From positions 682,001 through 746,000 of the forward strand of contig NZ_CP032099.1 in assembly GCF_003544835.1 (NCBI RefSeq): a DNA stretch of 64,000 nt, read 5' to 3'. Source of the DNA: Aliarcobacter skirrowii CCUG 10374. GTDB taxonomy: Bacteria > Campylobacterota > Campylobacteria > Campylobacterales > Arcobacteraceae. A program made the position numbers and the translations under genes. The notes under the pieces are model-generated. The model did not search any database and was not told the origin of the DNA. It worked only from the letters and a program-made list of their open reading frames with translations. Shown in pieces: positions 20,151 through 61,229 of the stretch. Position 1 is the first letter of the stretch, and the number at the start of each line of letters is the position of its first letter.

Positions 20151-21236
20151 ATGACAAAAACAAGATTAACTGGAATATATTTTAGGGAAATTATTACTAA
20201 TGATAAAACTGATAAAGTTTATTATATCACATACAAAGATGAAAATAATAAAAAGATATGGATAAAGATTGGTAAATATAGTGAAGGTATTAGGGAAACA
20301 TATTGTAATCAAAAAAGAAATGAGATTTTAACAAAACAAAGAAATGGAGAAGAGGCACCCGTAATAGCAGCTAGAAAAAAGAAACAAATTTTATCAATAG
20401 AATATTTAGCAGAAAGTTATTTCAAAGAGAAAAATATATCTGGTTCAACTTTAAATCACTATAAAGTCCATGTTTTGCCTTATTTCAAAAACTATGATAT
20501 AGATTTATTAGATAAAAAAGATATTGAAAAATATAAACATTTTTTAAACCAAAAAATAACTATTAATACTAAAAAGCCTTTAGCACCTAAAACAATCAAT
20601 AACATATTAAATATTTTAAAAACAATTGGTAAATACTCTTTGAAAAATGATTTACTGAAAAATGATTTCACAAAATATATTACTACTTGTAATATAGATA
20701 ATGCAAGAGAGAGATTTTTAACAAAAGATGAGATACAAATTTTATATAATGAAACAAAAGAAGATAATATCATTTATTTATTTTTTAAATTGGCTTTAAA
20801 TACTGGAGCTAGACTTGCAACTATTTTGAATATACATAAAAAAGATATAGATTTTGCTCATAATCTTATTACTTTAAAGGATTTTAAAAACAATTCAACC
20901 TATAAGTCATTTTTAACAGATGATTTAAAGCATTTGCTAGAGCTTAGAACAGCAAATTTATCTTTAAATGATAAAATCTTTACAACTAATCCAGAAAAGA
21001 GATTAAGAGCAATTTTAGATGAACTTTTTAATGAAGGCATTGATAATAGTGATAGAAAAAACAAAGTTGTAATCCATACATTAAGACACACATTCGCAAG
21101 TCACTTAGCTATTAATGGAACACCAATATTTACTATTCAAAAACTAATGAACCATAAAGATATAAAAATGACTATGAGATATGCAAAACTAGCTCCTGAT
21201 AGTGGAAGAGAAGCAGTTATTAATTTAGGATTATAA
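20151..21236 (+). CDS. tyrosine-type site-specific integrase
   Basis: A 361-residue tyrosine recombinase. Order of parts: N-terminal arm-binding DUF4102-like region, core-binding SAM-like domain (ISGSTLNHYKVHVLPYF), catalytic domain with the first arginine in TGARLATILNIHKKDI, the H-x-x-R box HTLRHTFASHLAING, and the nucleophile in MTMRYAKLAP. It is the size and layout of island/phage integrases rather than of integron IntI. Its position next to the tRNA fragment makes it the likely integrase of the island. Confidence 0.93.
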   Translation: MTKTRLTGIYFREIITNDKTDKVYYITYKDENNKKIWIKIGKYSEGIRETYCNQKRNEILTKQRNGEEAPVIAARKKKQILSIEYLAESYFKEKNISGSTLNHYKVHVLPYFKNYDIDLLDKKDIEKYKHFLNQKITINTKKPLAPKTINNILNILKTIGKYSLKNDLLKNDFTKYITTCNIDNARERFLTKDEIQILYNETKEDNIIYLFFKLALNTGARLATILNIHKKDIDFAHNLITLKDFKNNSTYKSFLTDDLKHLLELRTANLSLNDKIFTTNPEKRLRAILDELFNEGIDNSDRKNKVVIHTLRHTFASHLAINGTPIFTIQKLMNHKDIKMTMRYAKLAPDSGREAVINLGL

Positions 21237-25057: not shown

Positions 25058-25210
25058 GAATATATAGAAATGTTTTATAACTCAAAAAAAAGACATAGTT
25101 TTTTAGATTTTATAAGTCCAAATGAATTTGAGAAAAGATACAATGATAGTGTTACTCAACCCAAGGTGTTAACTGAATAAAAAAGTGTCTACCATCTTGG
25201 GGTCATTCCA
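25058..25210 (+). mobile_element. IS3-family transposase C-terminus and right end (remnant 1)
   Basis: The frame EYIEMFYNSKKRHSFLDFIS then PNEFEKRYNDSV is the C-terminus of an IS3-group OrfB integrase, ending at TAA 25178. Directly after it TGTCTACC...GGGGTCATTCCA (25186-25210) looks like the terminal repeat. Everything upstream of 25058 is lost. Three more copies of this right end occur at 28166, 40239 and 44588. The 24931-25057 stretch before it holds nothing I recognise. Confidence 0.75.
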
Positions 25211-25425
25211 GTCTGATAGAATTTGTAATTCTAAATGATTGAAAAATGCATCTTTAAACTTATGACTTAAAAGTGATTTTTGTTGTTCAAAAAGTCTTAA
25301 GGGTTTGAGAGAATCAATAAATTCTACTTCTTGAACACTTTTTGGAACAAATTACATCTCTTAAAAAGGCTATTAGGCTAATAAGTTAGATTTTCTAATT
25401 TTGCTCCAAAAGTAAGAGGTTGAGG
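25205..25425 (-). pseudogene. gene remnant and degenerate X-type repeat
   Basis: On the minus strand a frame VEFIDSLKPLRLFEQQKSLL ... LQILSDWNDP runs into the IS3 end, so it is a truncated gene end whose stop is supplied by the IS. Upstream of it (25335-25425) lies a degenerate copy of the approximately 95-bp X repeat (see 40129), with its TTTTGG and CCAAAAG arms still recognisable. Confidence 0.4.
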
Positions 25426-25554
25426 AACGACCAAACTGAAGGACAAGTGGTGAAACGACTTGATAGTTTGGTCTTTAAATTTTATTTATACGAGATTTAA
25501 AAGCTCGATATTTTCGCACTTATAACTTGTTCTTCTTCCTGTGTTTTGTTATCA
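25422..25554 (-). repeat. attC-like recombination site 4
   Basis: Read on the minus strand: TGATAAC core, variable region, and GTTCCTC core, with an internal hairpin (arms GACCAAACT and AGTTTGGTC, plus CAAGT/ACTTG, 25429-25473). The stop codon TGA of the 116-residue gene lies inside the first core, as in sites 2 and 3. Outer cores fit the integron consensus RYYYAAC / GTTRRRY only partly. Confidence 0.5.
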
Positions 25555-26204: not shown

Positions 26205-27818
26205 ATGAGCGAAAAAGAAACTACTTCTACAACACGTATTTTTAAGTCATGCCTAGATATTGTTAAGGGATTTTCAAAACAGAACAATATCAGTGACTCT
26301 CAACAAATTAGTATTATTGTTGAAACATACAAACACTTGGCACCAGCTAATACACGTATGGACGGATTTATCTATGACCATTTTATTAAAGAAGACCAAG
26401 AAGAGAAGCGTTTTACTTATGAAACACTTTATAATCTATACAAGTACGCTATTAATAAAAATTCAAATCTAAAAGATTACTACTATTTTTCAGCAACATT
26501 GAGCAAAATATTTATTGTTACTCAATATGTTGAAACCCATATGGAAATAGATGACGATTATGATGGTGGTCCAAGGGTTGTAAGCAGTAAAGAGACTATA
26601 CGTTTTTTAACGGGTGAAAAATATGAAGAGTTTAGCACTATAGGTGAGGAACTGATTAAAAGTGCAAAAGCTGCATACAAAAACGATATTTATGGTAAAA
26701 ATTTAGATGACCATATTTACATGATATGTGCAACTAATCAAAAACTACAAATACTTTTCATGGATGAGTTTATTATAAACAGAGAACAATCACTCTACGA
26801 ATGTTTAAAAAATATGTCTGATGATTTTCCAAGACAAGGCAGTTGTCCATATGCATCCTTTACAGACCACTTTGGAGTAAAAGATAGAATAAAAGTGGTA
26901 CTTATGGATTATTATCAAAATCCAAATAGCTTTTTAATTTCCAACTCAATTACAGAGTCTTTTATATGCGATCTTCTTGATATACTACATATTCAAGTTG
27001 GGAATAGTAAAAAAGAGGTCTACTCAAAGTCTGTCGTCTCTGCACTAAAAATTGCAAAAGAAGTAGCAAAGCTTGAAAAGTTTAAAGAATCATATACTGG
27101 ATATTTTAAAAGTAAACTAGAGTCAAAAAACAGTAACTTACTCGATGCCATTCAAGAAGATATAGAGATGTTTGATAAAGATGTAGTTAGCAATCATACA
27201 CTTGCAGAGTTTTCACTAAGAGTTCCTAAGCAACTTTGCTATCAAACATTAGCCAATAATTGTAATTTTCTTGAATTCTCCAATATACGCCAGGTTGTCA
27301 ACTCAGATTTTCTTAATATCTTTTGGCCCGCCCTAAAATATATTATTGAAAAGGATAAACTCCCCTTGCTTTTAAATCCAAATTCAATTATTGAATATGG
27401 AGGAAATAAGAATTTCATTAGTGAGTACGACTTCTTTACCGGTTGCTATATTGAAGAGAAAGATAACCCTTTTGTAATTAAAATTACAGAACAAAATAGG
27501 GCACGACTTCAATGCTCGATTTCTTACAAAAAGGATAACACTGATATAGATTTTGATATAGATTTTGAAATATTAGATAAACTTCAGTCAATAATCACCT
27601 CAAACCAGAATAGTTTTGGAAATATATTTAACTCATCAACGGGTTCTTCTATTAAAATAGCAAATAATGGGAGTATGTGCTTTTACAGCAAAGCTCTATC
27701 TATTTGCATAGATAAAAATATTGCTCATAAGTTTTATGAGGTAATAGACATACTTAAAAAAAGTAAACAATACGAAGATATACTTATTGTAAATAGATTG
27801 CACCATGGGCAAATATAA
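26205..27818 (+). CDS. large hypothetical protein in cassette region
   Basis: A 537-residue soluble protein with AAAGGA eight bases ahead of ATG. No family recognised and no Walker, nuclease or membrane motif found. It is mostly helical, with LLDILHIQVGNSKKEVYSKS near residue 260 and a C-terminal part (from residue 440) that alternates strand-like repeats (DIDFDIDFEIL). It is one of only two large genes in the 25-40 kb block on the plus strand, opposite to the cassette direction. Neighbours suggest a defence or stress cargo, by association only. Confidence 0.55.
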   Translation: MSEKETTSTTRIFKSCLDIVKGFSKQNNISDSQQISIIVETYKHLAPANTRMDGFIYDHFIKEDQEEKRFTYETLYNLYKYAINKNSNLKDYYYFSATLSKIFIVTQYVETHMEIDDDYDGGPRVVSSKETIRFLTGEKYEEFSTIGEELIKSAKAAYKNDIYGKNLDDHIYMICATNQKLQILFMDEFIINREQSLYECLKNMSDDFPRQGSCPYASFTDHFGVKDRIKVVLMDYYQNPNSFLISNSITESFICDLLDILHIQVGNSKKEVYSKSVVSALKIAKEVAKLEKFKESYTGYFKSKLESKNSNLLDAIQEDIEMFDKDVVSNHTLAEFSLRVPKQLCYQTLANNCNFLEFSNIRQVVNSDFLNIFWPALKYIIEKDKLPLLLNPNSIIEYGGNKNFISEYDFFTGCYIEEKDNPFVIKITEQNRARLQCSISYKKDNTDIDFDIDFEILDKLQSIITSNQNSFGNIFNSSTGSSIKIANNGSMCFYSKALSICIDKNIAHKFYEVIDILKKSKQYEDILIVNRLHHGQI

Positions 27819-28007: not shown

Positions 28008-28143
28008 CAATTAATTGTACCTTTTTGAGTATGTTCAAAAATTCAACTCTTTTTAGAACAAGTTTTCCATTCGTAAAAACTACTCCAAAAGTAAGTAGTT
28101 TTGGAACTTTTAACCAAAACTTAAAGTCGTGTTTCAAATATAA
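28008..28143 (-). repeat. X-type repeat (copy c) with attached Z block
   Basis: A degenerate copy of the X repeat fused to a block shared with 25861-25911. On the minus strand it reads as a short ORF with MKHDFKFWLKVPKL followed by sequence similar to other X copies; I treat this as repeat, not gene. The 27819-28302 gap also holds an IS3 end. Confidence 0.5.
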
Positions 28144-28192: not shown

Positions 28193-28302
28193 ATATAAAG
28201 TTCATCAAATCTATAGTGAACATTTCAATTAGAACATTTTTTTTGTTAATAAACACAGGTTTTAAATAGATGTATACTATACTTTCGTAGATAAGGAGAT
28301 TT

Positions 28303-31300
28303 ATGATTTCTACAGATAATGCTACATATACATATAGAGGATTTAGGCTACAGGCTTTATATGCTTTATATAAAATATTTACATCTTCTCATTCATATAC
28401 TTTCCAGCCTGAAGGAGCTGAAGATCTTGCTATATTTGATAATAATAAAAAACTTATTGAAGCCATACAAGTAAAAAGTGGTAATAACTCTCTTTCATTA
28501 AGTGATTTTAAAAACTCTTTCTTTGAACGACTTGTTCACCTTCAATCAACTAACCCAGATATCTGTATTTATATTGTTAAATTTGGACCTATTGGAATAG
28601 AACTAAAAAATGCTTGTAATAAAGATGGGGTCGAACGACAAAATGTCATTAATAAGCTATTGAGTAAAGAGAATTTCAAATGTAATAAAAATCAACTAGA
28701 AAATCTTTTTAATTCAATGAAAACGATGGTAGTAATAGAAAAAGAGATATATCAAAATATAGATGATGTTTTAAAGGACTCATTACTCGGAATAAATAAA
28801 GACCATGCATTTGACTTACTAACTAAATGGATATATGACTTCTCTGAAGAACAAGGGATGATAAACCAAAGTATATTGAAAGATAAAATCATAAATATTA
28901 GTAAGTTTTTAAAAGGAAGAGAGTCTTATCACAAAAAATGGTTTTCAGTAATACAACCTATAGAATTTTTAGAAATTAATGAAAAACAAAAAGAGTCACT
29001 AGCCATCTCATATTATCAAGGTGAATCAGCAAAAATATCACATATCCATTTAAATCTTGATGTCAAACGTTTAAGTAAACTCACTTGGATGCAAAAGCTA
29101 CATTCTGAACAAAATATACTTTTTATTCATGGTGCTTCAGGACAGGGAAAAAGTACATTAGCCTACAGATATATACATGAGTTTTATCCTGAATCATGGT
29201 GTTTTGAAATAAAATTAACAGAGAATAGAACTGATGCACTTGAGAGTGCTTTAGCTATTTCAGAACATGCAAATGCTTTAGATACTTCAATTCTTGTATA
29301 TATGGATGTTTCTCCACACGATAGTGGTTGGGAAGAGCTTGTACAATCTTTGTCAAACTATTCAAATATTAAAGTTTTAATTACAATTAGAGAAGAAGAC
29401 TGGAAAAAATCTTATATAACTGGGGTAGACTTTTCATTTAATGATATTGACTTAAAATTTGATGAAGAAGAAGCTACAGAAATTTTCAAAATTTTATTTC
29501 ATAAACAATCAATAAAGCATTATCTTAATTTTACAGATGCATGGAATGCATTTGGAAGCAAAGGTTCTCTACTTGAATTTGTTTATCTTATTACTCAAGG
29601 TGGAAGACTTAAAGAGCGTTTACAATCTCAAATTGATAGATTAATAGATGAAAATAATAATCATATAATCTCTATATTGCGATGCATAGCAGTTGCCACT
29701 GCATCTGGTGCTAGAATAAATGTGAAAAAGACAATTCAGCACTTTCAAATTGTTCCAGAAATACTATTTAAAAGACTTGAATCTGAATATTTTCTTAGAA
29801 TTGATGATTCAAAACAATGGATAGAAGCTTATCATCCTCTACGTTCAGTAATATTAGAAGAGATATTAATTGATGAAGGATATGCCCCTTGGATAGAGCA
29901 GTTTCAAATAATATGGCCGTTGATACATGATGAAGATGTTGGCATAATTTTGCTTCATGCATTTATAAATCATTTTGACAAAAGAGAAGAAATTTTTTCT
30001 ACTGTTTTATTATCTAATCCAAATAATTGGATTTCCATTGAAAAAATTATTCAGGCTTTAATTTGGCTTTCAGTCAAAGAATTCGTTGAAGAACATTTAG
30101 ACTATATTAAAGAAATTTTTAATACAGCAGAAGGACATTTTATTCTTACTTTAGGAGCTGATATAGCCAATGTTATCAATGATTCATGGAAGGATTTAAT
30201 TAGTTTACCAATACCAGAAGAAAGACGCTTAAAATGGATTGAAATACGCAATCATCTTGAAATAGCTAATTTCAAACTTAACTATTTAACACAATATTTG
30301 CAAGACCTTCCACAAGAACTTTTTACACCAAAAAAAGATGAAGAATGGTATGCTCTATCTAAAACGATGTTATGGCTTTGTAAATGTAGTATTATAAATG
30401 ATGTATCTTTTATAGACAAAAATACACTTGAACAAGCAGAAATAAAATCTATAAAAATAGCTAGTCATTTTGCTACATCCTTATATCTTGCATATCCAAA
30501 ATCATTTTTAAAATGGCAAAGTTTAAATAGAAAAATAATTTTAGAACGTTTATGTAAAAAAGAGAATGTAATTGGTATTGAAGAGACGGAAGAAAATATT
30601 AAAGCTCATTTTTTAACTTTTGATTTAACCATAGACCAAGACAATAAACATTCTGATGATGAAGAAAATATTGTTCATGCTAAAACAATGGCAGTTATTG
30701 ACATCTTACATAAATTATTTCCAGAAAAAAAAGTTATATCATCTCAAGGATATGGACATCTACTTTCTGAAATGATTAATCATGATGAAAGTGTAAAAAG
30801 TATTCCTGTTGAAAATCTTCATACTAAAGAATTTGTAGAAGTAAATGCAATGTTTCGCAGAATAACTAATAATTTTTTTAGACCAGAAACTTGGAATGAT
30901 TACGTTGAAGATGTAATGATGTTACGTCAGAAAATTTTAGAATATTTAAAAATAACCATAAGTCTACTAGAACAATATTTTCATAATAAACAAGCAATCG
31001 ATCCACTACGTAAATCAGGAGCCATAGAGAAATGGAACGAATTAGATTCTACTTTAAAACAGCAAATACTTTTACCAATCACAGCAGTGGATAAATGGGG
31101 ATTTTTTGATGAAGATTCAATCTTCATCAAAGGATCTATTGAAATCAATAATATTAATCTTTCAATCAAAAGATATGCTTCAATTCAAAAAGTACTTAGA
31201 GACTATAAAACAAATTTAGGAAATTTCTTTTTACAAGCTGCTTCAGTATTTGATATTAATGCTTTCACGGGAAAACTATCATCAGAAGAACGTAATAATT

Positions 31301-32400
31301 TAATTCAAAAATTTGAAATGCAAAATTTTCCAGTTAATCATTTACATCTATCATGGATTAACTTACTAGAAAGTATTAACAATATTCCAGTTTTACAAAA
31401 AGAATTCGATAACATTTTTTCTGAACTAACTGAATATAAACTCAATAAAGATTTAAAGAATCAAGAGAAGTTAACAATTGAACGACTCGGACAATTATGG
31501 TATTTTTTTGCTCACAACCCTAACATCAAAACAAAGAGAGCTCAAAAAGAGTTAACAAAACGATTTGAAGACCGAAAAAAGAACTTATTAAATGAAGTAC
31601 TTCTATTGTTAAATACAAATGAGACAAGAACAAAATTTTCTTTTTTAGAAAAAGATCCTGATAAACAAAACAACCATATCCTATATATTAAAGTTGAAAA
31701 TGATTCTGCTTTACAAGCTTGGTACATTTGTTTTGAATCTATAATGAAGACTAGTAAATATATACATAATTTAACTCCATTTGCCAAAACTGTTTTGGAA
31801 TGGTACTGGAAAAGAATTTTATTTATACCAATTGCAAATACTTATACTGTTAATAATTTTATCATTCCAATGCCAACAAATCACTTCTTGCTATCTAGTA
31901 ATGAAGAAGAAATTAATCCTCTTCAACATATACCAAAAAAACTATCTAAAAGTGAATGTGAGTTATTGAAACTATCTCAGTTCTCTTCATCTACAGCAAC
32001 CATGATAAATGAAATTTTTGATTTGACTTCAAAATTATTTAGATATGTTTCTCATATCAAAGACTTAAAGAATCTTCCAGATAATTTAAACTATGGGAAA
32101 AAAGTGTTAACTAGTTATGTAAAAAATATCAATATAGTTATTAATGATTCGATTAACGTTGTAATCGAGAAATTAACTGTTTTACAAGAATATATTAAAG
32201 AAAAATCAGAAAATGAGAATGATATTTATCTTGATGTAGTTTCTGAATTAAGTAATTTTTGGACTCACCTCTATCCTGATTCTATATTCGAAGATAAAGA
32301 TGAATTAAATATGAAGGAACTACAAATTTGGAGTGATGAGTTACAGCAAGCGATAGGTAGTTTGATGTCTCTTTATCCATTAGTTATGGATTTAGACTAA
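28303..32400 (+). CDS. STAND-type NTPase with N-terminal nuclease domain, candidate antiphage protein
   Basis: A 1365-residue protein. Residues 10-60 (YRGFRLQALYALYKIF ... FQPEGAEDLAIF ... IQVKSG) form a PD-(D/E)XK core with D41 and Q56-V-K58, in the style of the Cap4/dsDNA-nuclease domain. A P-loop follows at residues 277-284 (GASGQGKST), a Walker B-like ILVYMDVSP about 50 residues later, and a VLITIREEDW sensor-like strand. The remaining 900 residues look like helical repeats. Nuclease plus STAND NTPase plus sensor is the plan of AVAST (Avs) immune proteins; the exact type is not assigned. AAGGAG precedes ATG. It lies reversed within the cassette block. Confidence 0.7.
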   Translation: MISTDNATYTYRGFRLQALYALYKIFTSSHSYTFQPEGAEDLAIFDNNKKLIEAIQVKSGNNSLSLSDFKNSFFERLVHLQSTNPDICIYIVKFGPIGIELKNACNKDGVERQNVINKLLSKENFKCNKNQLENLFNSMKTMVVIEKEIYQNIDDVLKDSLLGINKDHAFDLLTKWIYDFSEEQGMINQSILKDKIINISKFLKGRESYHKKWFSVIQPIEFLEINEKQKESLAISYYQGESAKISHIHLNLDVKRLSKLTWMQKLHSEQNILFIHGASGQGKSTLAYRYIHEFYPESWCFEIKLTENRTDALESALAISEHANALDTSILVYMDVSPHDSGWEELVQSLSNYSNIKVLITIREEDWKKSYITGVDFSFNDIDLKFDEEEATEIFKILFHKQSIKHYLNFTDAWNAFGSKGSLLEFVYLITQGGRLKERLQSQIDRLIDENNNHIISILRCIAVATASGARINVKKTIQHFQIVPEILFKRLESEYFLRIDDSKQWIEAYHPLRSVILEEILIDEGYAPWIEQFQIIWPLIHDEDVGIILLHAFINHFDKREEIFSTVLLSNPNNWISIEKIIQALIWLSVKEFVEEHLDYIKEIFNTAEGHFILTLGADIANVINDSWKDLISLPIPEERRLKWIEIRNHLEIANFKLNYLTQYLQDLPQELFTPKKDEEWYALSKTMLWLCKCSIINDVSFIDKNTLEQAEIKSIKIASHFATSLYLAYPKSFLKWQSLNRKIILERLCKKENVIGIEETEENIKAHFLTFDLTIDQDNKHSDDEENIVHAKTMAVIDILHKLFPEKKVISSQGYGHLLSEMINHDESVKSIPVENLHTKEFVEVNAMFRRITNNFFRPETWNDYVEDVMMLRQKILEYLKITISLLEQYFHNKQAIDPLRKSGAIEKWNELDSTLKQQILLPITAVDKWGFFDEDSIFIKGSIEINNINLSIKRYASIQKVLRDYKTNLGNFFLQAASVFDINAFTGKLSSEERNNLIQKFEMQNFPVNHLHLSWINLLESINNIPVLQKEFDNIFSELTEYKLNKDLKNQEKLTIERLGQLWYFFAHNPNIKTKRAQKELTKRFEDRKKNLLNEVLLLLNTNETRTKFSFLEKDPDKQNNHILYIKVENDSALQAWYICFESIMKTSKYIHNLTPFAKTVLEWYWKRILFIPIANTYTVNNFIIPMPTNHFLLSSNEEEINPLQHIPKKLSKSECELLKLSQFSSSTATMINEIFDLTSKLFRYVSHIKDLKNLPDNLNYGKKVLTSYVKNINIVINDSINVVIEKLTVLQEYIKEKSENENDIYLDVVSELSNFWTHLYPDSIFEDKDELNMKELQIWSDELQQAIGSLMSLYPLVMDLD

Positions 32401-32474: not shown

Positions 32475-32570
32475 CTTAAACTGTACCTTTTGGAGTATGT
32501 TCAAAAATTCAGCTCTTTTTGGGACAAGCTTTCCCTTCATAAAAACTGTTCCAAAAATAAGAGGTTTAGT
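32475..32570 (-). repeat. X-type attC-like repeat, copy d
   Basis: Minus strand: ACTAAAC core, CTCTTA spacer, TTTTGGAAC arm, variable middle, CTCCAAAAG arm, then GTTTAAG core. The end cores are partly complementary to one another and differ from those of copies e and f in a compensating way. It abuts attC-like site 1. Confidence 0.5.
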
Positions 32571-32571
32571 A

Positions 32572-32640
32572 AATTAACGTTTAAAATGAGCCGATGAATT
32601 GCCCGCAGGGTAATTTATTGGCTCCTCTGATTTGTTATAT
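32572..32640 (-). repeat. attC-like recombination site 1
   Basis: Minus strand: ATATAAC core, CAAATCAGAG, then an imperfect hairpin with arms GAGCC(A)AT(A)AATT(A)CCC and its complement around a 3-base loop (32588-32624), then ATTTTAAAC and GTTA. This is the layout of integron attC sites and is 90 percent like site 2. It follows the stop of the 341-residue gene by four bases. Confidence 0.65.
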
Positions 32641-32643
32641 GGG

Positions 32644-33669
32644 TTAGGCATGCTCATCCATTTTAAAGTTGTATTTCTTTTCTACAAATAAAATAAATTC
32701 CTCTATTCCTTTTTCAATTGTTTCTAACATATGAACGTACCCTTCTTTTGTTAAAGAACGATCAATAGCAAAATGGTGAATGATGCCATGTCTATATTCA
32801 ATGATTTCAGAAATACGATTTTCCAAAAAAGTTACAGATCTTCCTATTTTTTTCTTTTTGTAGAGGATGTTTCTAACATCGATACCTAGCCACTCTTTAT
32901 AGGCCTTGTTTAGCTGATTAAGATTTTGAAATGTATAATTTCGAGCAATAATATTTTCAATAGTTGCATCTTTTTTCTCTACTTCTAATAATGTTTCAAA
33001 GTCTAGTTTTTGCCTATGTTCTCCACGTTTTTTAAGTGCTACTGGATCATATTTTATTAGCACCTGAAATGCTTGTGAGAAAAAAAACTCAAACATTGAA
33101 ACAGCAAAAGGTACAAGCCCATTGTAGATAACTCTACTAGGATCAAGAGTTTGGGTATATTCTATAAAGTCATCAATTTTCCCATCTGCAGGCTTTAGTT
33201 GTTGTATGGATGGTTCAGGTAATGCAAATTTGACAGCCGAAATTTCTTGCCTTACATGGCTATATATTGCTGTAATTCCTCTACTTATTGGTGTGCTTTT
33301 ATCATCCCATAACTGAGCATATCGATTAGCTCCATAATCACCTTGCAACGTACCACCGAAAAGCTTTCTTGCTCCTCTTAGGACATTATTAAACATCTTA
33401 ACATCGTGCCAACTTGCACTGTAAAGATTACGAACGTGAAGAGCCCACTCATTACCGGTGATACTCAATTCATCATCTGACACAGGAAATATATCTGCAG
33501 AAACACCATCTATAGATTTAAAATCTTCATAGTCAAACCATGAATAATTAATGGTTCCTTTGGGCCAATCCCAAAAGTGTCCACACTTTTCAAAACCTAA
33601 ATCTTCAAGATATTTTTTAAGTTCATCTCTTGTAGCTTTTTTGGGGTATAAAGTTACATCCCTTCCCAT
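32644..33669 (-). CDS. HEPN-like cassette protein
   Basis: A 341-residue soluble protein. The N-terminus (MGRDVTLYPKKATRDELKKY) and a FEKCGHFWDWPKGTINYSWF segment look like a distinct domain; the C-terminal 150 residues are helical and carry R293-x4-H298 in YRHGIIHHF, the RxxxxH signature of HEPN ribonucleases. No partner nucleotidyltransferase is adjacent. It is the second gene of a two-gene cassette (21-bp gap after the 320-residue gene) bounded by attC-like sites 1 and 2. Ribonuclease activity is inference. Confidence 0.55.
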   Translation of the reverse strand: MGRDVTLYPKKATRDELKKYLEDLGFEKCGHFWDWPKGTINYSWFDYEDFKSIDGVSADIFPVSDDELSITGNEWALHVRNLYSASWHDVKMFNNVLRGARKLFGGTLQGDYGANRYAQLWDDKSTPISRGITAIYSHVRQEISAVKFALPEPSIQQLKPADGKIDDFIEYTQTLDPSRVIYNGLVPFAVSMFEFFFSQAFQVLIKYDPVALKKRGEHRQKLDFETLLEVEKKDATIENIIARNYTFQNLNQLNKAYKEWLGIDVRNILYKKKKIGRSVTFLENRISEIIEYRHGIIHHFAIDRSLTKEGYVHMLETIEKGIEEFILFVEKKYNFKMDEHA

Positions 33670-33690
33670 TTATATTAATCCTTAGTGTAT

Positions 33691-34653
33691 TTATTTCTCT
33701 CCACTGTTGTTAGATATTAGTTCAACACTATCACCTTGAATCATTATTGTATCAGCATTCTCACACATAAGATTATATTCAGAGAACATATCTCCTGTAA
33801 TTGTTGTATCACTTGTAACTAATGTTAACAGATTACCAAGCTTATAACTATAGCCAGTGAAATTATCATTATATAATCCATCATTTGTTTTAGGGTAGTC
33901 TTTATATTTTATTTTGTTATAATCACTATTTAATATTGAAATAAATGCTTTTTCTGCATCTGATATTAGTCTAGTATAATTTAAACTATTATCAATAGTA
34001 TTATTAACTATTTGTATTCTAAAAGGTTCTATTTTAAAAAATAATAACATTATCTCGTCTGTTAATCTAGTATTTTTATCAAAAGTATTTTCGTTAGATA
34101 ATATTCTAAGTCTTTTATCATGTGGTTTTACGACCAGTCTTGAAAAGCTATCCTGTGATTTGGAAATTCCTATATAGTGAAGATAATATCTATTTAATTT
34201 TATAAAATTTGTAAAGTTCACAAATAAACTATCAAATCCATAAGATTTCAATGCTAAAACCATTTTTGGTGTCATTGTCTCAATAATTCTAATTTCCTCA
34301 TTCGTCTCTATTTCAAGTTCCGAAAAGATGATTGTGGACTTATTGAAAGCAAAAGATATTTTACTTTTTTCAAGATTGACATCATATAAATTTGCAAACT
34401 CACGTAAATTTATTTCGAAACTACTTTCAATGTTGTCAACTACAATTTTTAATTTTAAAGTAAATGATTTAGAGATACTATCAAATAATTCATCTTCATT
34501 GTAAATAAAAAAACTTTCATAGCATTGTACAATCATATAAAGATTACTACTACTTAATGCTTCTTTCCAAGATTTGTCATCTTTGAGTCTTTCAGCATCA
34601 TAATTTGTTATTGGAGGAGCTATTAGTCTCAATATATTTATTTGTGTTTTCAA
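33691..34653 (-). CDS. cassette-borne hypothetical protein
   Basis: A 320-residue soluble protein, no family recognised. Around residue 150 the sequence NRYYLHYIGISKSQDSFSRL resembles the start of a GIY-YIG-type nuclease (YIG box then an arginine), and KPHDKRLRILSNEN follows; this is only a suggestion. Start is 15 bp after the end of attC-like site 2, as expected for the first gene of a cassette. Confidence 0.5.
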   Translation of the reverse strand: MKTQINILRLIAPPITNYDAERLKDDKSWKEALSSSNLYMIVQCYESFFIYNEDELFDSISKSFTLKLKIVVDNIESSFEINLREFANLYDVNLEKSKISFAFNKSTIIFSELEIETNEEIRIIETMTPKMVLALKSYGFDSLFVNFTNFIKLNRYYLHYIGISKSQDSFSRLVVKPHDKRLRILSNENTFDKNTRLTDEIMLLFFKIEPFRIQIVNNTIDNSLNYTRLISDAEKAFISILNSDYNKIKYKDYPKTNDGLYNDNFTGYSYKLGNLLTLVTSDTTITGDMFSEYNLMCENADTIMIQGDSVELISNNSGEK

Positions 34654-34668
34654 TTTCAGTTCCTATAT

Positions 34669-34737
34669 ATCTAACGTTTAAAATGAGCCGATGAATTGCC
34701 CGTAGGGTAATTTATTGGCTCCACTGTTTTGTTATGT
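34669..34737 (-). repeat. attC-like recombination site 2
   Basis: Minus strand: ACATAAC core, CAAAACAGTG, hairpin arms GAGCC...CCC / GGG...GGCTC, ATTTTAAAC, and GTTAGAT, which fits GTTRRRY exactly. The stop codon of the 215-residue gene lies inside the first core. Best consensus match of the four sites. Confidence 0.7.
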
Positions 34738-35379
34738 ATTTTCAGCATTGAGAAACGCTTTTATATTATCAATAAATGGACGCAATCTTCTGTATGCAAG
34801 TTTTGATTGTTCAATTTCATACTCAATGTTTTTTTTGGCTGCAGCTTCAATATGTATACTATTTCTTAGTGTGTAAAAACTTTTTATTTCATCTGCATAA
34901 ATTTCATTAACAAAGCCTATATCTACAGAAGCATCAACTTTATCATGGAAAGGGATTGAAGTCCAAGGAGTTTTTGTTTCTTTTTTTAGACATGTAAAGA
35001 TTTTGTTACCTTCATATGTAATCTTAGTTAATCCTGAAAGAGCTGCAATTTCTCTAAGACTTATATGTGTTGATATTTTCTTTACATTCTCATCTTCTTT
35101 AAAATTATTTAATAGTAAATAGTTGATTACAGCTTCATAGATTGAAGCATATTGAATAATTTGAAACTTCAAATGTGCATGTAGTTCAAAGTCTTCTAAA
35201 AATAATGCTTCCATTAATTTATAAATGTATCTGGCTGTATAAAATTCTCTTGCAAGAGATTCTTGTAAAGCTTGATCTTTAATAAAGTCAAACTCATGAA
35301 TATACCAATCATGTTCTTGTGGCAAATCTCTTTTACAATAGTTTAAGACTTCATCTATAGTTTTAGTTTCTAATGGCAT
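34732..35379 (-). CDS. HEPN-like cassette protein
   Basis: A 215-residue, almost wholly helical protein. FYTLRNSIHIEA gives R172-N173-x2-H176, an RN..H signature like that of HEPN-domain proteins (MAE_28990-like). Ribonuclease or antitoxin-paired function is inference. Follows the beta-flower gene by 21 bp, and ends in attC-like site 2. Confidence 0.5.
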   Translation of the reverse strand: MPLETKTIDEVLNYCKRDLPQEHDWYIHEFDFIKDQALQESLAREFYTARYIYKLMEALFLEDFELHAHLKFQIIQYASIYEAVINYLLLNNFKEDENVKKISTHISLREIAALSGLTKITYEGNKIFTCLKKETKTPWTSIPFHDKVDASVDIGFVNEIYADEIKSFYTLRNSIHIEAAAKKNIEYEIEQSKLAYRRLRPFIDNIKAFLNAENT

Positions 35380-35400
35380 TTATGTCTCTTCAATGTTTTG

Positions 35401-35757
35401 TTAAGTATTGAAATAATTAGCCAAATCATTTGATGACCAACCACTTCTTCCTGGCTTTCCAGGTGTACCCGACAAACCAGGTCTCCCTGGACGACCAGAA
35501 AACCCTGGCATACCTGGAGTACCACTCATTCCAGGACGACTCGGTAAATACCCTGTTGAGTTTCGCAAAAAGCCCAAAGCTTTGTTTTGATTATCATAGA
35601 GAACTCCATCTTCAAACCAACCGATATGTCGTCCTTGAAGTGAATACATATTGTCGTTATATATCCAAGCTATTACTTGACCATTACGATTTCTAAAACA
35701 ATCATTGTCATGAATTAATGTTGATTGTCCATTGCGGTTAAATACCCAATCTGCCAT
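35401..35757 (-). CDS. beta-flower protein with collagen-like tail
   Basis: A 118-residue protein. Residues 1-70 contain four short repeats of the pattern W/F-x-x-x-G/N-x (VFNRNGQ, CFRNRNGQVIAWI, MYSLQGRHIGWF, LYDNQNKALGFL), typical of the '4-fold beta flower' domain. Residues 73-108 are a G-x-P-rich collagen-like stretch (RPGMSGTPGMPGFSGRPG and on). Such proteins have no firm function. The ribosome site is GGAG. The gene is upstream of the HEPN-like gene in the same cassette. Confidence 0.65.
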   Translation of the reverse strand: MADWVFNRNGQSTLIHDNDCFRNRNGQVIAWIYNDNMYSLQGRHIGWFEDGVLYDNQNKALGFLRNSTGYLPSRPGMSGTPGMPGFSGRPGRPGLSGTPGKPGRSGWSSNDLANYFNT

Positions 35758-36108
35758 TTATTCTCCTTTTATACATAACTATTTATTAAATATACATTAT
35801 ATATAAAATACCCTAAAAATGAACAAATAACATACATAAAAGTGTTGTATATCAAAATGCCTACAAACAACATAAATAAAGTATTTTTCTAAATATTACT
35901 ATAAAAAACATTGGAAACTGAGATACTTCTTAAATAAATTTTAAGTTTATGATATGCTTTTTATGTATGATTATTGTAGATATTTAGATGATAATAGTAC
36001 ATAATGTATATATCTTAAGGTGATATCGTAATAAAACTGCAAAATGTTAAATATATTATGAGGAGTAGAAACAGAAAATTGCTACAAAGATGAGTTATAA
36101 AACAAGTT

Positions 36109-36205
36109 CAACAACCTGTTCTTTTTGGAGTATGTTTCAAATTTTAACTCTTTTTGGAAGAAGCTTACCATTAGTAAAAACTGCTTAAGAAGTAAGAGGT
36201 TGTGG
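36109..36205 (-). repeat. X-type attC-like repeat, copy e
   Basis: Minus strand: CCACAAC core, CTCTTAC spacer, variable middle, CTCCAAAAAG arm, then GTTGTTG. Inner left arm has decayed (TTCTTAAGC for TTTTGGAAC). Abuts site 3. The 35758-36108 interval upstream of the beta-flower gene is AT-rich with no gene seen. Confidence 0.5.
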
Positions 36206-36271
36206 AACGTTTAAAATGAATAATCAGTAACCAGCATAAGTTTTTTGATTGGCTCCTCTAATTTGTTATGT
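36202..36271 (-). repeat. attC-like recombination site 3 (variant)
   Basis: Minus strand: ACATAAC core, CAAATTAGAGGAGCCAATCA and ATTTTAAAC are the same as in sites 1 and 2, but the centre differs and pairs poorly. The stop codon of the HNH remnant lies in the first core. Confidence 0.55.
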
Positions 36272-36450
36272 GTTTTCTCTTGCATCTTTAATATATCTCT
36301 TTACTTTTTCAATTGAAATAGTTTTTCGTCCCCTGTGAATCATTGCATGACAGTTAAGACACACTGGAATAAGATCTGTGATTAGGGTTCAGAATATTCT
36401 TTTTTTATTTCATTCAAGGGTACTAAGTGGTGCACAGGATATCACTTTGT
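36266..36450 (-). pseudogene. HNH endonuclease remnant with frameshift
   Basis: Two frames join to the C-terminal half of an HNH nuclease: VHHLVPLNEIKKEYSEP, then after a one-base shift LITDLIPVCLNCHAMIHRGR and KTISIEKVKRYIKDARENT. The HH, and CxxC/H residues are those of the HNH/zinc site. The N-terminus is missing. Stop lies in attC-like site 3, so this was a gene cassette. Confidence 0.7.
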
Positions 36451-36606: not shown

Positions 36607-37455
36607 TTAATCAAAGCAAGTAAAATCGAAATTACTAAATACATAATCAAAGTTTACAGGCTTTTTAAAACTATATTCTTTCATATAAAACCAAAAATTA
36701 GACTCTGAATTAGGGAAAATTATAAAAAACATTTTTTCATCATCATCGTAAGTTATAAAATAATTCCGTATAAGTTCATCAAGTATAGAATTATAGTCAT
36801 TTTGCTCTATTCTTATGGTTCTAAATAACTCTTCATAGCAGAAATAAATTAGCATATCACCATGTCCCCATTCTAATTTACTTTTATCTGTAGAAGCTCT
36901 CTCAAAAGCTATTTTAAAAAGATTGACTGCATCAGGAGACATTTTTATAAATTTTTTTATTTCTCTATTAAAAATTGTTACATCAACTAATATTTCATTA
37001 TTGTTTCTGTAATCTTGACCATCAATAGTAGTATAAAGATTTGATAAAGAAGTTACATCTTTAGAAATTGTAGTTTTCGTAACATCTTCAAAAGAATTAT
37101 ACATATTTTTTATAGCACTATCCATCCATTTCCAAGATAATTGTTCGTGATCTTGTTTTATTTTTTTCATAACATTTACTGGATATTTATGAACATTGTT
37201 AGTTTCAATATGACAAGAATAACATAAAAGAAGTAGATTATCGTAATGCCTTCTTTGCTCATTTGTCATATGAGGATTAAATCTCTCTCCACCTTCTGAT
37301 GCTGCTTCAATGTGACATACTTGTCCTACAAAATTTCCATTCATATCAAACATCATATTGAAACAATTAGGAAATGCACATTGGTTACCTGAAAGGGTAT
37401 AGAGTTGTCTCAATGTATCATATGTTGGTGCTAATCTTTTAACTTCCTCTTTCAT
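36607..37455 (-). CDS. HNH endonuclease with unknown C-terminal domain
   Basis: A 282-residue protein. Residues 20-110 are an HNH domain with zinc cysteines: GNQCAFPNC, GQVCHIEAASEGGERFNP, and NLLLLCYSCHIE. The C-terminal 150 residues (from about EDVTKTTISK) are unassigned and may be a winged-helix-like domain. HNH proteins of this kind occur next to restriction systems and may be a separate defence nuclease. It starts 59 bp after the restriction gene. Confidence 0.8.
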   Translation of the reverse strand: MKEEVKRLAPTYDTLRQLYTLSGNQCAFPNCFNMMFDMNGNFVGQVCHIEAASEGGERFNPHMTNEQRRHYDNLLLLCYSCHIETNNVHKYPVNVMKKIKQDHEQLSWKWMDSAIKNMYNSFEDVTKTTISKDVTSLSNLYTTIDGQDYRNNNEILVDVTIFNREIKKFIKMSPDAVNLFKIAFERASTDKSKLEWGHGDMLIYFCYEELFRTIRIEQNDYNSILDELIRNYFITYDDDEKMFFIIFPNSESNFWFYMKEYSFKKPVNFDYVFSNFDFTCFD

Positions 37456-37514
37456 AGTGTATTTATTCCTCTCAAAATGAATTGAAAATATTATATTTTT
37501 ATATTTTTATATTT

Positions 37515-38465
37515 TTAATGTGGTCCCATAAATCTATCACCATTAAAGTGGATCATATGGTCTGGTTCACTTGAGATCCAAACTTCCGTCTCCCAAGCAA
37601 TTTCTGCAATATATTTTCTAAAAGTTGGTCTATCTGGAAATGCTGTTACATATACATTGCCAGATGAACAGTTCTCAAACATTTTTTCTAGGTCAATAAT
37701 TCTCTTTTGATCTATCGGGCCGTGAGTTGTAACTGCTTCAATAAGATATAACCAATTTTTAGTTTCATCATATAAAACTACATCTGGTAGCTGCAGCTTA
37801 TCATTTTCAGATATTGGAATACCAAGCTCTTCTAACTTTTCTTTATTTACATAGATATATTTATTTTCAGTATCTCCAACATAGAGTAATTTAGATCCGT
37901 GAGCAAACCTTGAAGCAAAATCCTCAATTATACTTACTTGTAACTCATTATGTGTTCCAGAGGATAAAGTAAACTCTTCTCCATCGATAACTAAAGGTAT
38001 TCTATGTAGGTCTCTCTTTTTCGCATATTGTTCTTTTAACGAAGTATGTGTTTTAAAAAACTGTTCAACTTTTTTATCAAATTGTTTAGTTTGATATTTT
38101 TTTACAATATCTAAAGCTTCATCAGCCACTTGATAAACAGTTTTTCCACTATTGGTAGGTCTTGTTAGATCATCAGGATTTCTTTCAATTAATGCTGATT
38201 GTTCTAGCACTCTTATTACTCTTTTTCTAACTGTTTCTCTGCTATTTTCTGCATAGTTAATATCAAATACATCACTGATATTTTTCAAAATATCATGTAT
38301 TCTCATCATTCTACTACTTGCAGCACTATACTTTTTATCACTATCGAGTGTTAAAAGAGAGAGAAAGCTTAAAGCCATTAAATCAGTTAGATAAAGCTCT
38401 GGTATATTGAATTTTCTCAGTAGTTCTTTCGTATCTTGTATTCTCTGTTTTGTGTTTTCTTGCAC
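37515..38465 (-). CDS. BsuBI/PstI-type restriction endonuclease
   Basis: A 316-residue type II restriction enzyme. The C-terminal catalytic part shows FTLSSGTHNELQVSIIEDFA, LPDVVLYDETKNWLYLIEAV and THGPIDQKRI, which I recognise from the BsuBI_PstI_RE family (known members cut CTGCAG). The N-terminal 130 residues are a helical, wHTH-like recognition domain. It overlaps the methyltransferase gene by 83 bp in another frame. Specificity is inferred from family. Confidence 0.88.
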   Translation of the reverse strand: MQENTKQRIQDTKELLRKFNIPELYLTDLMALSFLSLLTLDSDKKYSAASSRMMRIHDILKNISDVFDINYAENSRETVRKRVIRVLEQSALIERNPDDLTRPTNSGKTVYQVADEALDIVKKYQTKQFDKKVEQFFKTHTSLKEQYAKKRDLHRIPLVIDGEEFTLSSGTHNELQVSIIEDFASRFAHGSKLLYVGDTENKYIYVNKEKLEELGIPISENDKLQLPDVVLYDETKNWLYLIEAVTTHGPIDQKRIIDLEKMFENCSSGNVYVTAFPDRPTFRKYIAEIAWETEVWISSEPDHMIHFNGDRFMGPH

Positions 38466-39867
38466 TTATTAGCTCCTTATATATGTCATCTGGTATCGGT
38501 AAGTTCATTAGCTCCGTTGCATTAACTTGAGTATTACCATTTGAGATTCTAAAATATTTGTCTGTTAGTTCTGAGTCTAAAAAATCTCCAAGTATCATTA
38601 GCTCTTTTTTACTCATTTCATCATCTTTTCTATAAAGATAGTTTAAATGATTTTCTAATCCAATTTGGGTATATTCAATTTTATCTTTAAATATGTAACC
38701 TATATTTATTCTCTTTTTTTGCTCTTTAGAACTAAATCTTTTAATAATAATATAGTTTGATTTATCTATTAAGAGACTTGGATTATCTGTGCTAATATAC
38801 TGCTCTTTACCAAAGTCTAAAGGATGCACTAATTGTTTATTTTTAAAGTTATTCATCCAAATTAATGGTACAGTGTTTTTGGTGTGCTCATTAGTAATCA
38901 ATTCTTTAGATCTAAAAGTTACCACTTTCCCAGTTGAAACAACATAACCAAGAGACTGTAAAGTTTGAGTTGAACGATGGAATGTTTTTAAAATATCAAC
39001 ATCGTACTGATTAAGAGGTAGTTTAATAACACATTCTGGTTCGTGTGCATCAACGATTAGCTCATTTTCAACTTTCATTTCATTGTAGTCACTGAAACTT
39101 GAGTCCTCAGATGATGAAATTATTACTTTATCTATTTGTTTTTTTACAATTTTTGTAATTATCGTTTCTTGTAATATAGACTCACTTTTAAAGTGTTTTG
39201 TTCTTGTATTGAAAATATGGATTTGTTCAAAATGTGCATTATTCAAAAAGAAACATCGAAAAGCTTTAAAATAGCTTCCAGATGTAAAGCTTCTTGGAGT
39301 AATAAATATCATCTCTCCTGTATCTTTTAATAGTTCAATACTTTTGGCCATAAAAAGCATATAAATATTAGGCTGTCCATGTACAACATAATTCATCTTT
39401 ACCGCTTCGTTAGAGGCTTTATTTAATTTGAAATATGGCGGATTGGATATTATAAAGTCAAACTTTTGATTAATATCTTTGAGTATAAAGTTTTCTTGGT
39501 ATATTGTGAAAGATAGATCTACATTCTTTAAATGGCTTTGGAGCATCTCTATATTGCTTTTTAAACTATATATGATGTCTTGGTCTATCTCGTATAAATG
39601 TAATTTTACATTTAATGAAAGGTTTAAAGTGTCTAATCTTTGTAATAAGGAGATAGCTAAAATACCGTTCCCAGAACCACAATCTAATATATTTATTTCG
39701 TGTTGCTTTATATTGACATTTGCTAAAGAAGCCATAAACTTAGCGATATTAATATCTGTAAAAAATTGGCCAAGGTTCTTTTTGTGTTCATTACCTTTTA
39801 GTTCATTATATGAAATAGATTGCTCTTGTATTTGTTCTAAAAAAGGTAATTGAGGTACTTTCGTCAT
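38383..39867 (-). CDS. adenine-specific DNA methyltransferase (M.PstI/Eco57I type)
   Basis: A 494-residue N6-adenine methyltransferase paired with the PstI-type nuclease. Motif I LDCGSGNGILAISL (about residues 60-73) binds SAM; motif IV is FIISNPPYFKL near residue 138. A LGQFFTD segment precedes it, typical of Eco57I-like enzymes. The C-terminal half is the target-recognition region (ISNGNTQVNATELMNLPIP). Confidence 0.9.
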   Translation of the reverse strand: MTKVPQLPFLEQIQEQSISYNELKGNEHKKNLGQFFTDINIAKFMASLANVNIKQHEINILDCGSGNGILAISLLQRLDTLNLSLNVKLHLYEIDQDIIYSLKSNIEMLQSHLKNVDLSFTIYQENFILKDINQKFDFIISNPPYFKLNKASNEAVKMNYVVHGQPNIYMLFMAKSIELLKDTGEMIFITPRSFTSGSYFKAFRCFFLNNAHFEQIHIFNTRTKHFKSESILQETIITKIVKKQIDKVIISSSEDSSFSDYNEMKVENELIVDAHEPECVIKLPLNQYDVDILKTFHRSTQTLQSLGYVVSTGKVVTFRSKELITNEHTKNTVPLIWMNNFKNKQLVHPLDFGKEQYISTDNPSLLIDKSNYIIIKRFSSKEQKKRINIGYIFKDKIEYTQIGLENHLNYLYRKDDEMSKKELMILGDFLDSELTDKYFRISNGNTQVNATELMNLPIPDDIYKELISARKHKTENTRYERTTEKIQYTRALSN

Positions 39868-39926: not shown

Positions 39927-40128
39927 AATTATATTGTAAATTGTAATTTTTTTCCTTGAAAATCTTATATGGTAATATTATTCTTGAATTATCAGAAAAT
40001 GAGAAATTTTTTAAAATATAGATTGATTACATTATTTTTTAATTTCAATTTACTAAAAATAAAAAAGCTTAGTATTAACATGAATTCACACTTAGAATTT
40101 AAAAGTATCTAGTTTAAAATAACAAGTT

Positions 40129-40225
40129 CAACAACCTGTACCTTTTGGAGTATGTTCCACAATTCAAGTCTTTTTGGGACAGGCTATTTTTTACTAAAAA
40201 CTGTTCCAAAAGTGAGAGGTTGTTG
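40129..40225 (-). repeat. X-type attC-like repeat, copy f (best preserved)
   Basis: Ends CAACAAC and GTTGTTG are perfectly complementary; after a 4-6 base unpaired spacer, CTTTTGGA and TCCAAAAG pair. That is the two-box, bulged-stem layout of an attC site. Related copies are at 25335, 25866, 28008, 32475, 36109 and 41010. Confidence 0.55.
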
Positions 40226-40238
40226 CTTGATTAATAAT

Positions 40239-40263
40239 TGTCTAGTTTATAGGGGACATTCCA
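40239..40263 (+). mobile_element. IS3-like right end (remnant 3)
   Basis: TGTCTAGTTTATAGGGG then ACATTCCA, matching the ends at 25186 and 28166; no coding sequence left. Confidence 0.5.
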
Positions 40264-40430
40264 GATAAACTGTTTTCTATATTTAGGATGATCTGTCAAC
40301 AAAAAATAGGACACGAAAAGATGAATTATTAAAACAAGTTCAACAACCTGTTCATTTAGGAAAATAGATATTACTTTACATTCCTTCCAATATATGAGAT
40401 AAATAGTAAGTTCAATACAAAGGATTTATT

Positions 40431-40994
40431 ATGAATGTAGGTTATGCAAGAGTTTCAACTTCAAGCCAAAATCTTGAGAATCAAATTGATCAACTCAAGA
40501 GTGCAGGCTGTGAAAAGATATTTTCAGAAAAAAGATCAGGAAAGAATGAAGCAAATCGTGAACAGTTTAAAATTATGATGGGTTTCGTAAGAGAAGGTGA
40601 TGTACTTTATATTACAAAACTAGATAGATTAGCAAGGTCCGTAATAGACCTTCATAATACTGCAAAGTTTTTACAAAATAAAGATGTAAATCTTAAAGTA
40701 TTACATCAAAACATTGATACAACATCTCCAGCAGGTAGACTATTATTCACAATGTTAGGTGCTATTGCAGAGTTTGAACGTGATTTAATAAATGAACGTG
40801 TGAGAGAAGGGATTGAAGCTGCAAAGAAAAAAGGTGTTCAGTTTGGCAGAAAAGCTATTCTGGATACTAAAGAGAAAATTGTTATATACAAGCAGCATGA
40901 AAAAGGAAAGTCTGTTGAATGGTTATCTAAGTTTTTTCATGTAGCTCGTAATACAATCTATAGAGCAATTAAAGATGTAGCTAAGAAGAAGTAG
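40431..40994 (+). CDS. serine recombinase (resolvase/invertase)
   Basis: A 187-residue small serine recombinase. Catalytic S9 is in GYARVSTSSQN, with the arginines of KLDRLARS (about residues 64-71), GAIAEFERDLINERVREG, and a C-terminal helix-turn-helix (VEWLSKFFHVARNTIYRAI). It is full length and preceded by AAAGGA. Resolvases of this type act in Tn3-like resolution, inversion or plasmid maintenance. No res-like repeats could be confirmed by eye. Confidence 0.93.
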   Translation: MNVGYARVSTSSQNLENQIDQLKSAGCEKIFSEKRSGKNEANREQFKIMMGFVREGDVLYITKLDRLARSVIDLHNTAKFLQNKDVNLKVLHQNIDTTSPAGRLLFTMLGAIAEFERDLINERVREGIEAAKKKGVQFGRKAILDTKEKIVIYKQHEKGKSVEWLSKFFHVARNTIYRAIKDVAKKK

Positions 40995-41009
40995 TCAATT
41001 TGACTACTT

Positions 41010-41086
41010 CATATGTTCAAGAATTCAACTCTTTTGGGGAAAAGCTTTTCATCAGTAAAAACTGTACCAGAAGTAAGAGATTCAGG
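41010..41086 (-). repeat. X-type repeat, copy g (degenerate)
   Basis: Resembles copy f over about 75 bp but its left part is interrupted by the resolvase; the missing part (CAACAACCTGTTC) lies at 40332-40344. The resolvase therefore seems to have entered an X repeat. Confidence 0.4.
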
Positions 41087-41205
41087 GAGAGACTGTTCAA
41101 AATTTTGTGTCCTATATTCTGTTGACAGATCAAACATTTTATACCATGTTTACTTGATATAGCCAAAAATATATATGTCAAACCTCATTAATATTTTCGT
41201 TATTT

Positions 41206-59396: not shown

Positions 59397-60260
59397 TTAT
59401 TGTCCTATTATAATAGCTCTTGCGAAATCATCTATTTCTTTGGTTGAAAAGGTAAGGTCTCCCCATAATGCAGGAAATGTTATACCTGCAAAACCAACTG
59501 GAACCTTGATTTTTGGTTGAACAAAAGCACTTAATCCTATTCCTGTTAGAAATCTACTAATTACATATGTTGGATTTTCTTTTATATACTTTTCTACAGA
59601 ATTAAAAAAAATCTTTCTTGACCCATTTTCATCTGAAATAATATACTTTATAAGTTTTAATATATATTTTGTTTCTAATGAAGCTTTGTTTTTTTCTTCA
59701 TTGTTTTCATTGTCTAATTGCCAATCTCTAAAACCTGAAAGTCTACTTGCCCAATCTCCAAAGCCATATAATCCTGCATATATAGAGCCTGAACCTGCTA
59801 AAATTGGATGTTTTCCTTCCAATGCTTGTGTTACTGGATTTATATTATTAAGTTTATATTTTTCAATATCTTTTTTTGTTAATAGATGAACTTTATTATT
59901 ACTTGGATTATGCATAAGTCCTATGAAAACATCTTTTACAATTTCAAGTATAACTTCTTCTTTATCTATACATATTTTTTTATCATTATTTGCATCTATC
60001 CAACCTTTTATATAAAAAACATTTTTTTCATTAATCTTTAGTTCTTTTATTATATCTCTTGGAATAAATGGATATTTAGCAAAGTTTTCATTTTTATATT
60101 TTTTAACTGTTGTTGTATCATTTACCATTTTATTATCAAAACTATTTTTATTTATATCTAAAGGAGTTAGTCCAATATTTACCGTTGTATTTTCTGGAAC
60201 ATTTATTGTTTTTATATAAAAATCAACAATATCATCCAGATTAAACTTTTGCATTTTCAA
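59397..60260 (-). CDS. candidate T6SS effector, copy 2
   Basis: A 287-residue protein whose first about 240 residues equal those of the protein at 61540 (including NPVTQALEGKHPILAGSGSI and YAGLYGFGDWASRLSGFRDW), while the last 45 differ (GLSAFVQPKIKVPVGFAGIT...). No enzymatic motif is seen. The Gly/Ala-rich hydrophobic C-terminus with a membrane partner gene suggests a membrane-acting toxin, by inference. Overlaps the VgrG-like C-terminal gene by 20 bases. Confidence 0.6.
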   Translation of the reverse strand: MKMQKFNLDDIVDFYIKTINVPENTTVNIGLTPLDINKNSFDNKMVNDTTTVKKYKNENFAKYPFIPRDIIKELKINEKNVFYIKGWIDANNDKKICIDKEEVILEIVKDVFIGLMHNPSNNKVHLLTKKDIEKYKLNNINPVTQALEGKHPILAGSGSIYAGLYGFGDWASRLSGFRDWQLDNENNEEKNKASLETKYILKLIKYIISDENGSRKIFFNSVEKYIKENPTYVISRFLTGIGLSAFVQPKIKVPVGFAGITFPALWGDLTFSTKEIDDFARAIIIGQ

Positions 60261-60933: not shown

Positions 60934-60962
60934 CTCTATATAAATTTTATTATTTACAATAA

Positions 60963-61220: not shown

Positions 61221-61229
61221 TTGTTTTCC

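Follow-up and report, generated by a model that had tools for sequence, protein, structure and literature searches.

A putative Avs-like nuclease-STAND receptor gene in a D1-repeat array of Aliarcobacter skirrowii CCUG 10374

In Lamassu, the nuclease LmuA partners with the SMC-like LmuB, and the Cap4 nuclease of CBASS is gated by a SAVED domain. Avs1-Avs4 are nuclease-bearing STAND proteins that are activated by the terminase, the portal or another phage protein, which leads to altruistic cell death, and Avs5 carries a Sir2 NADase effector (PMC12931631). The effector of Avs3 is termed a cap4 domain, and in the DUF4297-HerA system, whose ATPase is a separate HerA hexamer, mutation of the D40/Q53/K55 motif reduced nuclease activity and eliminated defence (PMC11291478).

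Here we describe a gene of Aliarcobacter skirrowii CCUG 10374 that probably encodes a single-protein, Avs-like antiphage sensor of Arcobacteraceae, whose nuclease would cut DNA upon phage infection. The protein combines nuclease and STAND NTPase domains with intact and conserved catalytic motifs, its fold matches those of Avs3, Avs4 and Avs5, the gene is under purifying selection, and the array around it is rich in defence genes. The window analysed is a 64,000-nucleotide stretch (positions 682001-746000) of a genome consisting of a single 1.97-Mb contig, and all coordinates below are those of the window unless a locus is named. The gene and its parts are as follows:

28250..28299, plus strand: upstream signals, consisting of a promoter-like TAAACA-17-TATACT (28250-28278) and the ribosome site AAGGAGA (28293-28299)
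28303..32400, plus strand: coding sequence of the 1365-aa nuclease-STAND NTPase-helical protein (open reading frame, homologues, alignment, dN/dS)
28303..28917, plus strand: Cap4/DUF4297/LmuA-type PD-(D/E)XK nuclease domain, aa 1-205 (Pfam, VIA-align, invariant residues)
28423-28425, 28468-28470 and 28474-28476, plus strand: nuclease catalytic codons D41, Q56 and K58
29008..29862, plus strand: STAND NTPase with winged-helix-like region, aa 236-520 (PF25199; Foldseek and VIA-align to Avs3, Avs4 and Avs5)
29131-29154, plus strand: P-loop GASGQGKS, residues 277-284
29863..32397, plus strand: C-terminal mainly helical region, putative sensor, aa 521-1365 (low-confidence model, dN/dS)

Domains and relatives of the 1365-residue protein

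The open reading frame begins with ATG downstream of its own AAGGAGA ribosome site, and promoter-like matches, TAAACA-17-TATACT included, are no more frequent than in shuffles. A chance reading frame is ruled out because 1365 codons at 27% GC are kept at 85% amino acid identity elsewhere, in Arcobacter sp. NORP36, with a dN/dS of 0.28. This nearest homologue, from the same family, is 85% identical over nearly the whole length, and at the DNA level its similarity to the window sets in just past the start codon and ends near the stop codon, as for a unit that moved. The gene is under purifying selection with the C-terminus changing fastest: dN/dS, averaged over the whole branch to NORP36, is 0.16 for residues 1-206, 0.18 for residues 207-520 and 0.35-0.40 past residue 520. 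More distant, nearly full-length relatives are found on plasmids of Pseudanabaena (31% identity) and Deinococcus (25% identity), and further ones in two more Arcobacteraceae genomes and on viral contigs, where a profile search found two relatives and a scan with the single protein found none.

At the N-terminus, Pfam PF14130 (Cap4_nuclease) matches aa 10-157 with an E-value of 8e-5, slightly below its own cut-off, while VIA-align superimposes residues 3-205 on LmuA (9nxx; Z 12.8, rmsd 4.0, 193 residues) and the nuclease part on HerA-DUF4297 (9c1m; Z 12.2). Residues G13, Q17, E40, D41, E53, Q56 and K58 are invariant in an alignment of seven members, the distant ones of which are 21-30% identical, and D41, Q56 and K58 correspond to D40, Q53 and K55 of DUF4297-HerA. 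In fold and in the conserved D...Q-x-K residues, this domain is thus a PD-(D/E)XK nuclease of the Cap4/DUF4297 type. Unlike the DUF4297-HerA nuclease with its separate ATPase, and unlike LmuA and Cap4, which share the N-terminal nuclease fold, it is fused to a STAND NTPase within one 1365-aa chain.

The NTPase part has a P-loop core, a STAND-type profile and a winged-helix-like part, as expected of a STAND NTPase. Pfam PF25199 (nSTAND_NTPase5) matches it at its own cut-off (E 3e-8) and also matches six of the seven relatives; in the seven-member alignment, S279, G280, G282 and K283 of the P-loop are invariant, followed by T361, R363 and D366. A PDB sequence search returned no Avs or nuclease match, and the profile gave almost only P-loops. 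With an AlphaFold2 model of residues 1-606, made with four sequences and of moderate confidence (pLDDT 65.8), Foldseek against the PDB placed Avs3 (8dgc) first (E 2.5e-8), EfAvs5 (9jap) third and Avs4 (8dgf) fourth, and the list also holds LmuA, Cap4 and HerA-DUF4297 for the nuclease. The best VIA-align match of the STAND and following region, residues 211-590, is EfAvs5 (Z 14.3, rmsd 6.6, 359 residues), although AAA+ proteins reach Z 12-13 with the NTPase core, so a match of that core alone is not specific.

Like Avs3 and Avs4, the protein has an N-terminal nuclease, a STAND NTPase and a long C-terminal region, but it shares 12% identity with them in the fold alignment and is shorter, with 1365 residues against 2004 in Avs3 and 1541 in Avs4. 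Of the Avs1-Avs4 plan, in which one chain joins a nuclease effector, a STAND NTPase and a C-terminal repeat sensor, the nuclease and the STAND NTPase are present, whereas the helical C-terminus is seen only in the model of residues 533-1365, which is mainly helical and poor (pLDDT 44.1). Avs5, in spite of giving the highest Z, has a Sir2 effector where this protein has a nuclease.

None of the PADLOC models (E up to 1) or NCBIfam models (E up to 0.1), libraries that were run without an Avs positive control, matches the 1365-aa protein, and when PADLOC was applied to the seven aligned members, two distant ones matched the LmuA model (best E 3.6e-10). Because no such model recognises the sequence, the protein is a relative of Avs in plan and not a demonstrated member of Avs1-5. 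We regard it with good confidence as an Avs-like nuclease-STAND receptor of a family missed by the catalogues searched. The claim is that it works like an Avs, not that it is an Avs; this kind of protein is already known, and it is the branch that the curated defence catalogues searched have missed.

The original prediction, a 1365-residue protein that has its own ribosome site and joins a PD-(D/E)XK domain (D41, Q56-x-K58), a P-loop at 277-284 and a long helical sensor on the plan of Avs proteins, agrees with these results for the intact reading frame, the ribosome site, the nuclease and the P-loop. The structural comparison with Avs and Cap4 that it proposed found a nuclease core and STAND subdomains in residues 1-606. 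Its Avs plan holds for the Cap4/LmuA-type nuclease, the STAND NTPase and the fold matches to Avs3, Avs5 and Avs4, and does not extend to Avs1-5 membership; its helical sensor is mainly helical in a low-confidence model, with the sensor role assigned by analogy because the C-terminal model is poor and that of residues 1-606 moderate.

Predicted function and competing explanations

Based on work on Avs and DUF4297, we propose that the helical C-terminus most probably binds a conserved phage protein and that ATP binding by the STAND domain would lead to oligomerisation, which would bring the N-terminal Cap4/LmuA-type nuclease domains together for DNA cleavage and so abort the infection. The catalytic and P-loop residues are invariant across the relatives, including those from plasmids and viral contigs, and defence models recognise a PstI-type restriction-modification pair and an HNH protein among the neighbours of the gene. 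The protein adds to known defence proteins a nuclease-STAND receptor family that the searched catalogues missed. Its relatives extend across Cyanobacteriota, Deinococcota and viral contigs, which makes a direct search for its phage trigger feasible.

The occurrence of two nearly full-length relatives on plasmids and of others on viral contigs makes a role in competition between mobile elements possible, and the protein might then be a STAND-type conflict protein directed against plasmids or other mobile DNA instead of a sensor of phage proteins. Its nuclease fold is closest to LmuA of Lamassu, which PMC10586767 describes as an anti-plasmid/phage defence. We consider this unlikely, though the strongest of the alternatives, as the overall plan and the best fold matches are those of Avs, whose known ligands are phage proteins.

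Somewhat less probable is that the gene is half of a two-gene system, silent or altered in this copy after its partner was lost. A partner may be missing because in NORP36 a gene for a 461-aa MauJ-domain protein (L017:6616-8001), which is absent in the window, overlaps the start of the homologue. However, the Pseudanabaena and Deinococcus plasmid relatives have no such neighbour in their annotation, and the present copy is intact and selection on it is purifying, though this was measured over the whole branch to NORP36. The single-protein, Avs-like sensor is the preferred reading.

The integron remnant and the D1 array

Integron arrays have already been reported to store defence genes (Darracq et al. 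2025 and Kieffer et al. 2025, both cited in PMC12409362). The gene described here likewise lies among defence genes in an array with attC sites, but it differs from integron cassettes with defence systems in lying past the last attC, in a genome without intI, with borders made of D1, a repeat of about 100 nt. Features of the array are as follows:

28013..28113, plus strand: D1 repeat, left border of the 28303-32400 unit
32478..32589, plus strand: D1 repeat that closes the unit on the right and abuts an attC
32575..32641, minus strand: attC (32570-32645 by the covariance model), the last of the array in cassette direction, with a hairpin that the terminator scan also picks up, downstream of 28303-32400
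34672..34738, minus strand: attC (34667-34742 by the covariance model; also by alignment)
35758..35861, minus strand: attI/Pc-like segment, resembling the sequence that separates intI from the first cassette in Arcobacteraceae integrons, here without intI
36096..36220, plus strand: D1 repeat
36200..36276, minus strand: degenerate attC-like site adjoining the D1 at 36096-36220 (covariance model, weak: 32.3 bits, E 2.6e-4)
40115..40240, plus strand: D1 repeat
40289..41132, plus strand: small serine recombinase gene (40431-40994) that interrupts a D1 copy (40330-40361 / 41012-41085), with imperfect inverted repeats of 37 nt on either side

The attC sites belong to a family of which 14 copies from Arcobacteraceae integrons were aligned, with R boxes TAACG/TGTTA flanking the stem. 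In two other genomes (G055 and G085), these sites come after cassette genes next to an intact intI. Over the whole genome, the covariance model found no attC beyond the three in the array (one of them weak), mirror hits aside, and no match scored above the cut-off of the intI models NF011946 or TIGR02249, which rules out a complete integron. Since the segment at 35758-35861 resembles the region upstream of intI, the cassettes run leftward on the minus strand, and the gene at 28303-32400, past the last attC, faces the opposite way. Beside the attI-like segment, 35401-35757 encodes a 118-aa protein that ends in glycine/proline-rich, collagen-like repeats. Similar attI/Pc-like segments recur ahead of D1-unit genes at L062, L063, L066 and L067, in genomes that like this one have no full intI, as if whole integron bodies had been strung together.

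It is improbable that IntI inserted the gene in reverse as an ordinary, very large integron cassette, since the attC on its right, of a family that adjoins intact intI genes elsewhere, has no counterpart on the left or anywhere in the genome outside this array, the genome lacks intI and both borders are D1 repeats. The covariance model found no attC on the 28-kb side, only that near 32.6 kb, and for this reason the gene is not an attC-to-attC cassette. Instead, it forms a unit that is reversed and carries start signals of its own, in a D1-delimited array at the distal end of an integron remnant without integrase.

D1 is multi-copy in many Arcobacteraceae, where it divides arrays, and its copies in the window, at 28013, 32478, 36096, 40115 and 41011, all lie on one strand. 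The following counts cover the window and nine other loci with at least two copies, and they are descriptive because these loci were chosen for holding D1. All 27 neighbouring D1 pairs are in direct orientation, 53 of the 63 open reading frames of at least 120 aa are oriented against D1, and neighbouring copies are spaced 0.2-10.2 kb apart (median 2.9 kb). An attC directly follows many D1 copies, and several units have an attI/Pc-like segment in front of their genes, at a distance of a few hundred bases from D1. Folded as a single strand, D1 scored unevenly for attC-like structure (z-scores from -0.2 to -4.3). The NORP36 homologue also sits in a D1-type array and on the strand of D1, as does a gene in the same region for a 1301-aa SMEK-domain protein (L017:2302-6207).

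The original prediction had placed the gene, reversed, in a cassette-like array and called 4 kb unusually large for a cassette. The array does contain attC sites and the gene is flanked by D1 repeats, but it lies outside the attC-bounded cassettes. The reversed orientation holds because the neighbours at 32644-35757 and 36607-39867 are on the minus strand; the adjoining 26205-27818, a 537-aa open reading frame to the left of the unit with no family match, is also on the plus strand. As the gene belongs to a D1-bounded unit and not to an attC cassette, its size is to be compared with other D1 units, among which 4.5 kb is ordinary. By the yardstick of D1 arrays, then, the reversed orientation is real and the size is not unusual.

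Run on 77 proteins of D1 arrays, the window's included, PADLOC reported 90 families (families, not proteins), including type II restriction-modification, Lit, SduA, Tmn, PD-T7-5 and several candidate systems. D1 copies at loci L062-L072 also divide defence-rich arrays. Further P-loop or STAND-like proteins of very large size (1243-1510 aa) are encoded in D1 units, and the D1 array offers a practical route to more, as large unannotated STAND-like proteins recur in such units.

Tentatively, D1 could mark an Arcobacteraceae cassette system distinct from integrons, in which the site of about 100 nt would end units of up to 10 kb. These units, often equipped with a terminal attC and an attI/Pc-like leader of their own, would contain entire defence operons and be exchanged by a recombinase, and the Avs-like gene would be a reversed member. 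That recombinase might be the 187-aa serine recombinase encoded at 40431-40994, which adjoins D1 in at least five other genomes and has copies, 85-99% identical, in 15 of the 104 family genomes besides the source genome; alternatively, it may be an element that inserted into D1. As for the tyrosine integrase at 20151-21236, the role of a shared D1 recombinase was rejected: among the compared loci near D1 arrays, only L071 has a moderate match (38%), and the tyrosine integrases found there are not one family.

D1 also resembles TIMEs and TIME-COMPs, Tn3-derived miniature elements, in that a short repeat, possibly with a res-type site, flanks cargo and in that a resolvase-type gene with terminal inverted repeats lies within a D1 copy; composite elements bounded by TIMEs span from 1 to over 10 kb (PMC13367494). 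The D1 copies beside 28303-32400 differ in having no demonstrated transposase or terminal inverted repeats, and D1 is direct throughout, which is said to make res-bearing TIMEs unstable (PMC13367494).

About 170 nt within 25100-25460, a segment whose start resembles the end of D1, match L031, and L030 immediately beyond its last attC, at 86-87% identity. Within 59397-63931, the final part of a VgrG-like gene and the gene that follows it are present as near-duplicates (59397-60933 and 61540-63931).
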